A DNA stretch of 64,000 bases from Ignavibacteriales bacterium (lineage in GTDB: Bacteria; Bacteroidota; Ignavibacteria; UBA10030; SZUA-254): contig JACRMQ010000004.1 of assembly GCA_016214905.1 (NCBI GenBank), forward strand, positions 62,001 through 126,000. The letters are read 5' to 3'. The notes beneath the pieces are model-generated. The model had not been told where the DNA came from. It did not search any database and saw only the letters and a program-made list of their open reading frames with translations. Below are positions 31,138-43,655 of this stretch, piece by piece; positions within the stretch are counted from its first letter, which is position 1, and each line of letters starts with the position of its first letter. The position numbers were made by a program, and so were the translations under genes.

Positions 31138-31208
31138 GCGGAAAGGGTGGGATTCTCCGCCAGAGGCGGATCAGCCTTCGGCTGAGAACCCATGTTCCGC
31201 TTTTGATA
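31138..31208 (-). pseudogene. Broken copy of the tRNA-Ser(GGA) 3' end, split by a double hairpin
   Basis: The first 18 bases (31138-31155) are identical to the acceptor/T-arm end of the intact tRNA-Ser at 31442. Then come 30 inserted bases (31156-31185) made of two back-to-back hairpins, TCCGCC-AGA-GGCGGA and TCAGCC-TTC-GGCTGA. Homology then resumes (GAACCCA, then CCGCTTTTGA). The insert falls exactly inside the T-loop (TTC|GAA). Confidence 0.8.
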
Positions 31209-31440
31209 ATACTCCATCAAGGAATTTTCTTCCTCGTCCAGATTTCAAAAAGATTTCTCTCTTCCTGGCTGAATATTTATCTTCGTATGTCTCATGATAA
31301 ATAATTATCCAGGGAATACCTGATTTAGTGAAATCTGTTTTACCAGCATTATGTTCTTTGAAACGCTTATTAAGGTCTTCTGTGAAACCGATATATCGTT
31401 TTTTAAGCTTATCGCTCCATAAAACATAAACATGATACAT
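31171..31440 (-). CDS. Minimal GIY-YIG nuclease domain protein next to tRNA-Ser
   Basis: 89 residues, a single GIY-YIG domain: YHVYVLWS, RYIGFTEDLNKRFKEHN (catalytic Tyr and Arg), and REIFLKSGRGRKF (metal-binding Glu). Single-domain proteins of this URI/YhbQ type are widespread; their role is unsettled. Unusual here: the ATG lies one base after the 3' end of tRNA-Ser, so no separate leader exists, and the last 11 residues (SKAEHGFSAEG) and the stop codon are encoded by a broken copy of the tRNA plus hairpin insert. The gene is bracketed by direct copies of the tRNA 3' end, as an integrated element would be. Confidence 0.85.
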   Translation of the reverse strand: MYHVYVLWSDKLKKRYIGFTEDLNKRFKEHNAGKTDFTKSGIPWIIIYHETYEDKYSARKREIFLKSGRGRKFLDGVLSKAEHGFSAEG

Positions 31441-31441
31441 G

Positions 31442-31529
31442 CGGAAAGGGTGGGATTCGAACCCACGGACCGCTTTTGACGGTCACACACTTTCCAGGCG
31501 TGCCAATTCAACCACTCTTGCACCTTTCC
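31442..31529 (-). tRNA. tRNA-Ser (GGA)
   Basis: On the minus strand: acceptor GGAAAGG/CCTTTCC, anticodon stem CACGC/GTGTG with loop CTGGAAA (anticodon GGA), long variable arm, T-arm GTGGG-TTCGAAT-CCCAC. 88 bases, no encoded CCA. The GIY-YIG start codon follows after a single base. Confidence 0.96.
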
Positions 31530-42794: not shown

Positions 42795-42831
42795 GATAAA
42801 AATCGTTCAGGAACAGATAGCCGATAAAATT

Positions 42832-42907
42832 TTGCAACTCAAACGATAAATTAGCACATTAATACAATAAAAAATTAAGTTACATCCACGGAGAGGTGGG
42901 TGAGTGG
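42832..42907 (+). repeat. Direct repeat copy A: tRNA-Ser promoter plus 5' part of tRNA
   Basis: 76 bases matching 43498-43573 with three mismatches. It contains TTGCAA-17-CACATT, the decayed form of the functional copy's TTGCAA-17-TACATT, followed by the first 18 bases of tRNA-Ser. Confidence 0.9.
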
Positions 42908-43041
42908 TCGGTTCAAATCGAAGATTTGAACAAGATCTCGTCCCGCAAAAGCGGGACGGACTTAAACCAACGGTTTGTTCGATTCCGCAATGCGGAATCG
43001 GAATCTCGTTCCGCTTCGAAGCGGAACGGACTAGACCGCTC
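42890..43041 (+). pseudogene. tRNA-Ser(GCT) pseudogene broken by two 53-base double-hairpin inserts
   Basis: tRNA bases 1-18 (42890-42907) are followed by insert 1 (42908-42960), tRNA bases CTTAAACCAACGGTTTG (42961-42977), insert 2 (42978-43030), then the decayed continuation CTAGACCG. Insert 1 lies in the D-loop; insert 2 splits the anticodon (G|CT). Both inserts are exactly 53 bases, with two hairpins each, an ATCTC linker and a terminal GGA. The 3' half of the tRNA is only faintly recognisable (near 43082-43120). Confidence 0.8.
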
Positions 43042-43149
43042 AAGAAGAATAAGCAGTTGGCGAATAGTTATCGGGAAGATTGTATCGAGAGGGTTCATGA
43101 AAAGCAGAATATTCTTTCCATAAAAAGAATTTAATTATAAACAGGGTAA

Positions 43150-43440
43150 ATGAAATATTTTGTTTATATAATATATTCGCAGAAGTTTAAAAGAACCTAT
43201 GTAGGCCAAACCCGTAATCTTGAAAATCGTTTAAGCTTTCACAATTATGGTAAAGTGAGGTCGACAAAATATTATCGCCCGTGGCTTCTCTTGTACTATG
43301 AAGAATTTGCTACTCGTTCTGAAGCGATGAATCGTGAAAGGTGGTATAAAACTCCAACTGGTAGAAAAATGATTGGGGAGTTGATAATGAAGATGAAACC
43401 TAACTCCCTGGCCATCATGGCGAATAATAGAAGAGAGTGA
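43150..43440 (+). CDS. Minimal GIY-YIG nuclease domain protein next to tRNA-Ser(GCT)
   Basis: 96 residues: KYFVYIIYS, TYVGQTRNLENRLSFHN (catalytic Tyr and Arg) and MNRERWYKTPTGRKM (Glu of the active site). Same single-domain type as the gene at 31171, but clearly a different sequence. A GGGTAAATG start follows the broken tRNA-Ser; the intact tRNA-Ser and its promoter copy begin 58 bases after the stop. The gene therefore lies inside a 666-base unit bounded by direct repeats of the tRNA promoter region. Confidence 0.88.
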   Translation: MKYFVYIIYSQKFKRTYVGQTRNLENRLSFHNYGKVRSTKYYRPWLLLYYEEFATRSEAMNRERWYKTPTGRKMIGELIMKMKPNSLAIMANNRRE

Positions 43441-43497
43441 TAGAAAAATTAGTTAACCACCCCTTGATTAGCAAAGACAATTCCGTAAAATGGAATC

Positions 43498-43526
43498 TTG
43501 CAACTCAAACGATAAATTAGTACATT
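43498..43526 (+). promoter_or_regulatory. Promoter of intact tRNA-Ser(GCT)
   Basis: TTGCAA (43498-43503), 17 bases, TACATT (43521-43526), 29 bases before the tRNA. The duplicated upstream copy has CACATT instead, so only this one looks active. Confidence 0.6.
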
Positions 43527-43555
43527 ATTACAACAAAAAATTAAGTTACATCCAC

Positions 43556-43645
43556 GGAGAGGTGGGTGAGTGGCTTAAACCAACGGTTTGCTAAACCGTC
43601 GTACGGGGTCAACCTGTACCGAGAGTTCAAATCTCTCCCTCTCCG
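43556..43645 (+). tRNA. tRNA-Ser (GCT)
   Basis: Acceptor GGAGAGG/CCTCTCC, anticodon stem ACGGT/ACCGT with loop TTGCTAA (anticodon GCT), long variable arm (GTACGGGGTCAACCTGTAC), T-loop TTCAAAT. 90 bases, no encoded CCA. Confidence 0.96.
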
Positions 43646-43655
43646 CACTAAATTT

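Follow-up and report, generated by a model that had tools for sequence, protein, structure and literature searches.

On the minus strand of the window, the 64,000-nucleotide stretch of an Ignavibacteriales genome that was analysed (GCA_016214905.1, contig JACRMQ010000004.1, positions 62,001 to 126,000), an intact tRNA-Ser(GGA) gene, a host gene left whole, occupies positions 31441..31529 (ARAGORN; Rfam RF00005, 50.6 bits at 31442-31529). It is abutted by a gene for a single-domain GIY-YIG nuclease of 89 codons plus a stop (31171..31440, minus strand; open reading frame and Pfam PF01541, E 9e-13, residues 1-67), the ATG of which starts at 31440, the base right after the 3' end of the tRNA; beyond it, on the same strand, lies a partial copy of tRNA-Ser(GGA) (31138..31206; sequence and alignment score) that corresponds to the 3' part of the tRNA, i.e., the variable-arm side, the T arm, and the acceptor 3' strand. 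This layout, in which an 89-residue GIY-YIG gene follows the tRNA directly and the 3' part of the tRNA appears again, had been read from the letters alone in the original prediction and is confirmed by ARAGORN, Rfam, the open reading frames, Pfam, and alignment; the tRNA scored 52 against the region beyond the gene (locus L070), as opposed to 16 for the reverse-complemented region and 14 for a shuffled tRNA. Between the tRNA and its copy there is one open reading frame with a recognised domain, that of the GIY-YIG protein, the rest being short overlapping frames, and no gene for a site-specific recombinase was found in the unit with the frame list and Pfam. Rfam at gathering score matched no group I intron (Intron_gpI) in the window, its matches there being tRNAs only; by these same gathering-score matches and the frame list, the GIY-YIG gene is a separate frame that lies within neither an intron nor an intein.

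The direct repeat of the tRNA 3' end at 31138-31206 is broken by a 30-nt double hairpin inside the T loop of the copy (31156..31185, minus strand; pattern search, fold, and compensatory changes), a feature absent from the original prediction. Inserted at GGGTTC^GAATCC of the T loop, with GGGTTC on one side and GAATCCCACCCTTTCCGC on the other, the insert consists of two perfect 6-bp hairpins, the first of which closes with the three bases of the nuclease gene's stop codon (TGA, 31173-31171). Copy and insert together fold at -33.4 kcal/mol (z -4.3), a value that none of 200 shuffles equalled; the minimum-energy fold of the insert is one long hairpin, not two, and the form actually adopted is undecided.

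An AlphaFold2 model of residues 1-74 depicts one compact GIY-YIG domain (pLDDT 96.5), and no second domain that could provide long-site specificity is visible in the 89-residue protein (Pfam match at 1-67; 74 residues modelled). The closest solved structures by sequence are the UPF0213 proteins 1zg2 (E 5.8e-12) and 1ywl (E 1.2e-10), followed by Slx1 and I-TevI; Foldseek returned the same families weakly, with 1zg2 best at E 2.7e-3 and the I-TevI catalytic domain at E 0.057, so that the fold search yielded no match at E 0.001 or better. Phage and plasmid records held no protein relative at E 1e-4, PHROGs gave no match at 0.01, and the vehicle between cells remains unidentified. The window gene is under purifying selection: omega is 0.09 against each of two relatives (L044 and L043, dS 1.4 and 0.9), which appear to be the NfeD-site copies of genomes G010 and G002, respectively, and is 0.07 between the two (dS 1.6). 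These estimates are rough, as the dS of the window gene against its relatives is near saturation (0.9-1.4); an omega of 0.09 does not suit a decayed remnant, one of the two possibilities originally offered for this unit, and that possibility was rejected for the window copy. The 30-nt hairpin pair is identical in the window, L044, and L043 despite the high dS, and the hairpin copy has thus been more constant than silent sites, through function or gene conversion.

A second element lies on the plus strand of the window (42828-43646 as a whole) at an intact tRNA-Ser(GCT) (43556..43646; ARAGORN and Rfam). Its first part (42828..43038; repeats, sequence, and alignment) is a duplicate of the 5' flank and the 5' part of this tRNA, interrupted by double hairpins at 42908-42960, within the D loop, and, as read by eye, at 42978-43030, within the anticodon loop; a second GIY-YIG gene (43150..43440; E 2.7e-14 in a search with the first protein, and translation) stands between the interrupted copy and the intact gene, where the flank occurs a second time. 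The repeats comprise D1, 95% identical over 80 nt of the 5' flank, and D5, identical at 17/17 positions, and the alignment of the copy (L002), which contains a D-loop insert of 53 nt, scored 59 versus 23 and 16 for the controls. A third gene of the same genome, 35 nt after tRNA-Arg(TCG) (L003), looks decayed, with one TAA and a match that ends early; the short 3'-end repeat there scored 20, which is not above controls. The loci of the remaining two GIY-YIG genes of this genome (L004 and L005) contain no tRNA; both genes sit among repeated palindromes (for L004, CTGGATTCCCGC..GCGGGAATGACA).

The association with tRNA genes extends far beyond this genome. A search with the window protein yielded 27 loci in GTDB genomes, and an alignment (A1) of 25 proteins from these loci plus the two window proteins, picked irrespective of tRNAs, had matches at E 1e-12 in 167 of the 296 window-phylum genomes and in 130 of the 192 that share a phylum with L058 (its record is labelled Terrybacteria, here taken to belong to Patescibacteria); in both phyla, tRNA proximity was checked for part of the copies only. 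Hosts of the relatives belong to Bacteroidota, Ignavibacteriales, Cloacimonadota, Omnitrophota, Kiritimatiellae, and Patescibacteria groups, with up to 18 copies per genome. An intact tRNA identified by ARAGORN was observed within 250 nt at 19 of the 27 GTDB loci, at 87 of 110 loci of the window's phylum (among the matches listed), and at 18 of 30 loci of L058's phylum (the best 30 among the matches listed), which amounts to 123 of 166 distinct loci when L209, a duplicate of L058, is left out; in all 123 cases (123/123) the tRNA is on the same strand as the gene. The window-phylum set is made up of 30 loci, one a genome, and 80 more among the matches listed, nine further listed places not having been taken in, and includes the near-identical loci of two genomes (L175 and L176). 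Some of the 43 loci (of 166) without an intact tRNA that near lie at a contig edge. Given the 46 tRNA matches in the 3.3 Mb of the window's own genome, a random gene is estimated to have a same-strand tRNA at such a distance in about 1% of cases or fewer. By contrast, another single-domain GIY-YIG type, searched with L004 as the query in 40 related genomes, was tRNA-linked at none of 30 distinct loci (31 were read; L205 repeats L005), and the enrichment of the window's type next to tRNA genes, named beforehand as something that mobility should entail, is therefore borne out.

An intact tRNA followed by cargo and a 3'-end repeat is the classic layout of a conventional integrative element or phage relic, which would be moved by an integrase in trans into tRNA 3' ends, the partial copy serving as the attachment repeat, and the use of many tRNAs would also be in keeping with such an origin. 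This explanation is nevertheless highly improbable: integrase-type integration is disfavoured by the absence of a recombinase gene from the window's unit and by the 48 of 106 units that sit on the 5' side of their tRNA with a copy of its 5' part, which a 3'-end layout does not predict; moreover, hairpins in the repeat and the same-strand placement are left unexplained, and no phage or plasmid relatives were detected at E 1e-4.

The partial copy is likewise a regular component of these loci. For 106 of the 137 GTDB and window-phylum loci, together with L002 and L003 of the window's own genome, the intact tRNA was aligned to the region beyond the gene with long insertions charged at a fixed cost; at 100 of these 108 loci the score for a partial copy of the same tRNA exceeded all 216 controls (control maximum 25, observed median 55). 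The eight loci that did not pass are L003, L050, L052, L056, L076, L078, L079, and L128, of which L076 was scored at a truncated copy also held by L108, both having been kept as loci. The polarity is constant: of 54 copies whose tRNA lies upstream of the GIY-YIG gene, 47 extend to within 5 nt of the 3' end of that tRNA, and of 46 whose tRNA lies downstream, 44 begin at its 5' end. Insertions of at least 12 nt interrupt 83 of the 100 copies, and 83 of 109 insertions fold below -0.3 kcal/mol/nt, as compared with 0 of 109 control means. Loop classes, assigned only to the inserts below this cut-off (83/109), divide the hairpin insertions among the D loop (28), the T loop (20), the anticodon loop (15), and the variable region (2); the other 18 fall outside these, by alignment mostly in stems. 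T-loop insertions are located at TTC^ in 26 of 29 cases, including all 20 that pass the fold cut-off; the other three fold weakly.

The 30-nt inserts comprise two 6-bp hairpins and most of the 22-nt inserts two 4-bp hairpins, and their stems vary in a concerted manner. Across 11 inserts of 30 nt, all of the 132 cells are paired (100%) and 21 are changed on both sides; across 13 inserts of 22 nt, 95.2% of 104 cells are paired and 14 are changed on both sides; one-sided changes number zero in each set. The two sets together thus contain 35 double-changed cells out of 236, none changed on one side, 5 unpaired, and no G-U pairs. The former set represents 11 of 13 hairpin-forming inserts, with one identical and one out-of-phase insert (L046) dropped, and the latter 13 of 19 listed, with the identical L116 dropped along with L073, L082, L084, L118, and L127, which lack two 4-bp stems; this choice favours the pairing percentages and affects the zero one-sided changes less. 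The lack of G-U intermediates suggests, by inference, that the hairpins are of DNA-level origin or upkeep rather than products of RNA selection. The same observation bears on the proposal that the nuclease acts on tRNA itself, as a toxin-like or tRNA-cleaving module for which the partial copy provides a decoy RNA. Isotype-specific linkage and the loop-specific interruption of the copy would be compatible with an RNA target, but the absence of G-U pairs from 236 hairpin cells, albeit of chosen inserts, argues against RNA-level selection on the hairpins, and those relatives with solved structures that were found either are DNA nucleases or have no stated function; an RNA target is accordingly deemed very unlikely.

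Within the window's own genome, the 30-nt hairpin pair recurs, with at most 3 mismatches, at 7 places, which from flanks read by eye are three T loops of partial tRNA copies, two loops of other palindromes (L011 and L012), one coding gene (L009), and one intergenic site (L010). At tRNA-Thr(CGT) (L007 1343-1549) and tRNA-Pro(GGG) (L008 1369-1552), a T-arm copy follows the tRNA with the same double hairpin at TTC^, and no GIY-YIG gene was found at either by protein search; at L008 the terminator is duplicated as well. The non-tRNA palindromes that carry the double hairpin in their loop read GGGAGT..ACTCCC (L011 1486-1541) and GCAGAC..GTCTGC (L012 1492-1543), and the placement in L009 is apparently within the gene (by eye).

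Such distributions raise the possibility that what moves is the hairpin pair itself, the GIY-YIG protein being either its mobiliser or a bystander; palindromes would jump into hairpin loops, mostly tRNA arms, and partial duplications would persist since the intact copy is spared. In support of this possibility, the pair occupies non-tRNA sites (L009-L012) among its 7 own-genome places, tRNA copies at L007 and L008 carry it without a GIY-YIG gene, and stems that change by double substitutions only (21/132 and 14/104, none one-sided) are as expected of a DNA-level process. Left unexplained, however, are the same-strand GIY-YIG gene between two tRNA copies, a protein tree that tracks isotype (see below), and the lack of tRNA linkage in the other GIY-YIG type (0/30 distinct loci). 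A primarily hairpin-driven process is viewed as unlikely, though not negligible.

Target choice follows the protein. On the GIY-YIG protein tree, tRNA isotype (15 states, 106 rows) requires 26 changes as compared with a shuffled mean of 67 (minimum 60 of 300 shuffles), and the side of the tRNA requires 19 versus 35 shuffled; host group (99 rows; family code, or family/phylum for named records) requires 60 versus 73 shuffled (minimum 68 of 200). With fewer changes of isotype than of host group, protein lineages tend to keep their target isotype across host families, although support in the tree is sparse (stars on 7 of 132 inner branches; L069, a truncated GIY, excluded). The loop that holds the hairpin (56 rows) changes 18 times, which 2 of 500 within-side shuffles matched.

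Presence and absence were scored at the window's own site, where tRNA-Ser(GGA) neighbours an NfeD gene. Sixty relatives were searched, 52 genomes had an NfeD match, and 30 loci were read; tRNA-Ser(GGA) was observed within 900 nt upstream of NfeD and on the same strand at 16 of the 30, and the addition of G002 brings the scoreable genomes to 17. Seven of the 17 sites are filled and 10 are empty, with at least six changes on the NfeD tree; the gene is therefore not universal in relatives, and this comparison of empty and filled sites supports the mobility originally suspected. The filled sites carry the element on the 3' side of the tRNA in G000, G010, G058, and G002 and on the 5' side in G023, G028, and G033. 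G002 was scored as filled though its tRNA is off the contig, and G007 as empty though its 5' side is incompletely seen. Of the 60 relatives searched, G001 alone belongs to the same genus, and its site is empty; the nearest empty site is that of another species (NfeD 85-86% identical). In G058 the GIY-YIG gene is diverged (68 bits) and, by eye, other hairpins occupy the same T loop.

Tandem arrays of the unit were also observed. Five units stand behind tRNA-Leu in L090 (601-2637; identity 0.975-1.000), seven behind tRNA-Leu in L067 (1364-3859; 0.995-1.000), and eight in L168 (1001-3782; 0.852-0.954), identities being those of equal-length copies. The distribution, the arrays, and the presence/absence pattern uphold the view of the unit as a minimal tRNA-targeted mobile one, with the reservation that movement is inferred and was not observed. 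A different arrangement is seen in L056 (2360-2930), where the intact tRNA-Ser(TGA) by the GIY-YIG gene is flanked by the halves of a split tRNA-Ser, each with a hairpin at the anticodon; compared by eye, the intact and the split tRNA differ. The tRNA-Ser(TGA) looks, by eye, like a foreign replacement tRNA, a reading with which the alignment of tRNA and copy agrees (score 17, not above controls).

Other RNA genes are occupied as well. Rfam was run at gathering scores on 20 of the 31 tRNA-less loci among the first 137; the neighbour was a tmRNA at one locus and a group I intron at another, two loci overlapped RNase P RNA, and 16 had no match. At L106 (624-1228) the gene starts 12 nt after the tmRNA and, by eye, a hairpin-interrupted T-arm copy lies beyond; the near-identical L175 and L176 (515-1237) overlap the end of RNase P RNA; and at L054 the neighbouring group I intron splits a tRNA, as judged by eye. 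On the protein tree, 13 rows form a clade in which none has a tRNA within 250 nt. Its members include L151, L156, L161, L179, L121, L123, L174, and L053, with a C-terminus like GKRYxKNRLK, and the nine with flanks read show, by eye, short terminal inverted repeats such as CACCCCGTKAGA...TCTMACGGGGTGA. Pieces of a tyrosine recombinase gene (Pfam PF00589, 8e-15 to 2e-44) lie beside L151, L156, L161, and L179, and the element seems to interrupt such genes in these four.

The possibility that the nuclease is a host gene, for DNA repair or RNA processing, kept by tRNAs for co-expression, with the tRNA pieces arising as by-products of unequal recombination, may be weighed against these patterns. Purifying selection would be expected of such a gene, and its sequence and fold are closest to UPF0213 and Slx1; on the other hand, its presence is patchy, with at least six switches at one site, it reaches 18 copies per genome and forms tandem arrays at many different tRNAs, and copies exist at tmRNA and RNase P RNA loci. 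A host function is disfavoured on these grounds to the point of being scarcely credible.

The window feature is probably, then, one copy of a widespread, minimal, free-standing homing-type element specific to tRNA genes, a reading in which cleavage and transfer are inferences. The element would consist of a GIY-YIG gene within a tRNA transcription unit, shared transcription being itself inferred, and a partial, hairpin-interrupted copy of that tRNA. The nuclease is envisaged to recognise the genes for a single tRNA isotype and to cut them in a conserved loop, here the T loop GGTTC/GAATCC; a break in an element-free tRNA gene would be repaired from an element-bearing copy, thereby importing the nuclease gene. 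Repair of this kind, for which the evidence is its observed end product, would leave one whole tRNA gene and one partial copy. The hairpin pair, the position of which is established, may mark the cut site in the partial copy, and it could both protect that copy from cutting and stop it from acting as a tRNA. Expression of the gene from the tRNA's transcription unit, presumed from its observed strand, would account for the shared strand of the gene and every nearby tRNA, and recombination between tRNA repeats may yield the tandem arrays that were found. The intact tRNA by the gene keeps an uninterrupted T loop, and immunity of the donor site is thus not accounted for by sequence alone. Further points against the homing-type reading are the single visible domain of the protein, the hairpin-interrupted tRNA copies that lack a GIY-YIG gene, similar hairpins at non-tRNA sites, the loci without a nearby intact tRNA or without a copy above controls, and the hairpin insertions placed outside loops. 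Protection through a recoded intact tRNA was considered for the window copy only, by eye, and set aside; the differences fall in the variable arm and at the first T-stem position, not in the T loop. A broader and more speculative version of this homing-type reading is that a large, undescribed class of minimal homing elements exists in several bacterial phyla, each clade of which aims at a tRNA isotype, breaks the naive tRNA gene, and supplies a rescuing copy, i.e., a natural cleave-and-rescue system that measures 300-450 bp and has DNA hairpins formed where the loop is cut; this version is offered tentatively, as a possibility that falls short of being favoured. L056, judged by eye, would be its clearest case.

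Mobile DNA classically lands at tRNA genes, where the familiar guests are kilobases long and carry a recombinase; it is of interest that a gene of about 270 bp appears to use such a site alone, beside an essential gene that is left intact. That the arrangement recurs, across several bacterial groups, next to many different tRNA genes suggests a minimal selfish element of tRNA genes that has largely escaped notice. A single small protein makes two questions directly testable, namely how free-standing nucleases spread in bacterial chromosomes and where short bacterial double hairpins come from. For annotation, partial copies of tRNAs and the recurrent small GIY-YIG genes of these genomes seem to belong together as components of a single entity.

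Several known systems share features with this arrangement, no description of which in bacterial chromosomes was found in the literature; preprints and most subscription papers were outside the scope of that search, which is hence weak evidence of absence. Genomic islands at tRNA 3' ends have an intact tRNA at one end and a repeat of the tRNA end at the other, and the window element resembles them in both respects; unlike such islands, it has no recombinase, is about 300 bp long, belongs to a type that also occupies the 5' side of tRNAs, and contains hairpins in its repeat. The double-hairpin elements of organelles, in which two tandem short hairpins recur in a genome, are matched in the tandem pair and its conserved pairing, whereas the present hairpins are bacterial, are tied to partial tRNA copies by a nuclease gene, and, in the T loop, lie mostly exactly at TTC^. 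Among single-domain GIY-YIG proteins, those of UPF0213 (1zg2 and 1ywl) are the nearest solved relatives of the window protein by sequence; the single-domain type searched with L004, which is presumably of the UPF0213/YhbQ type, is not tRNA-linked (0/30 distinct loci), unlike that of the window. Characterised Seg-type homing endonucleases usually have a separate C-terminal DNA-binding domain. The window element shares with the Seg type a GIY-YIG domain, a location outside introns and inteins, and patchy presence with empty alleles, but its protein lacks that separate domain; because there is no second domain and cutting is untested, the element is described as one that works like a homing endonuclease and is not filed as a Seg protein.

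The closest functional parallel is SegB of phages T4 and T6, a free-standing GIY-YIG nuclease that is often encoded near tRNA genes of many isotypes, cuts within tRNA genes, and drives tandem amplification of a tRNA-nuclease unit (PMC13096335). Its motif RAWTSGAAC, present at 23 of 83 mapped cleavage sites, aids cutting and is not strictly required, and no favoured isotype is reported (PMC13096335). On the other strand the motif reads GTTCSAWTY, the T-loop sequence where the hairpins sit, a correspondence noticed after the hairpin sites had been mapped. SegB and the window's type have in common a GIY-YIG gene outside introns, proximity to tRNA genes of many isotypes, and tandem tRNA-nuclease units. 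Unlike SegB, the window element resides in a chromosome, lacks matches in the phage collection and in PHROGs, encodes about the catalytic domain only, and carries a hairpin-interrupted partial tRNA copy; in addition, the protein clades of its type follow isotype. A further parallel is provided by the rRNA genes of CPR bacteria, for which one study describes GIY-YIG-encoding insertion sequences that match no intron, its authors having doubted homing, and places the insertion sequences, all kinds together, mostly at the tops or bases of stem-loops (PMC11270868). In both cases GIY-YIG genes are associated with a gene for a structured RNA, with no recognised intron; the CPR insertions concern rRNA and are sparse, whereas the window's type is frequent, is found at tRNAs and also at tmRNA and RNase P RNA, and is accompanied by partial copies of the RNA gene and by fidelity to isotype.
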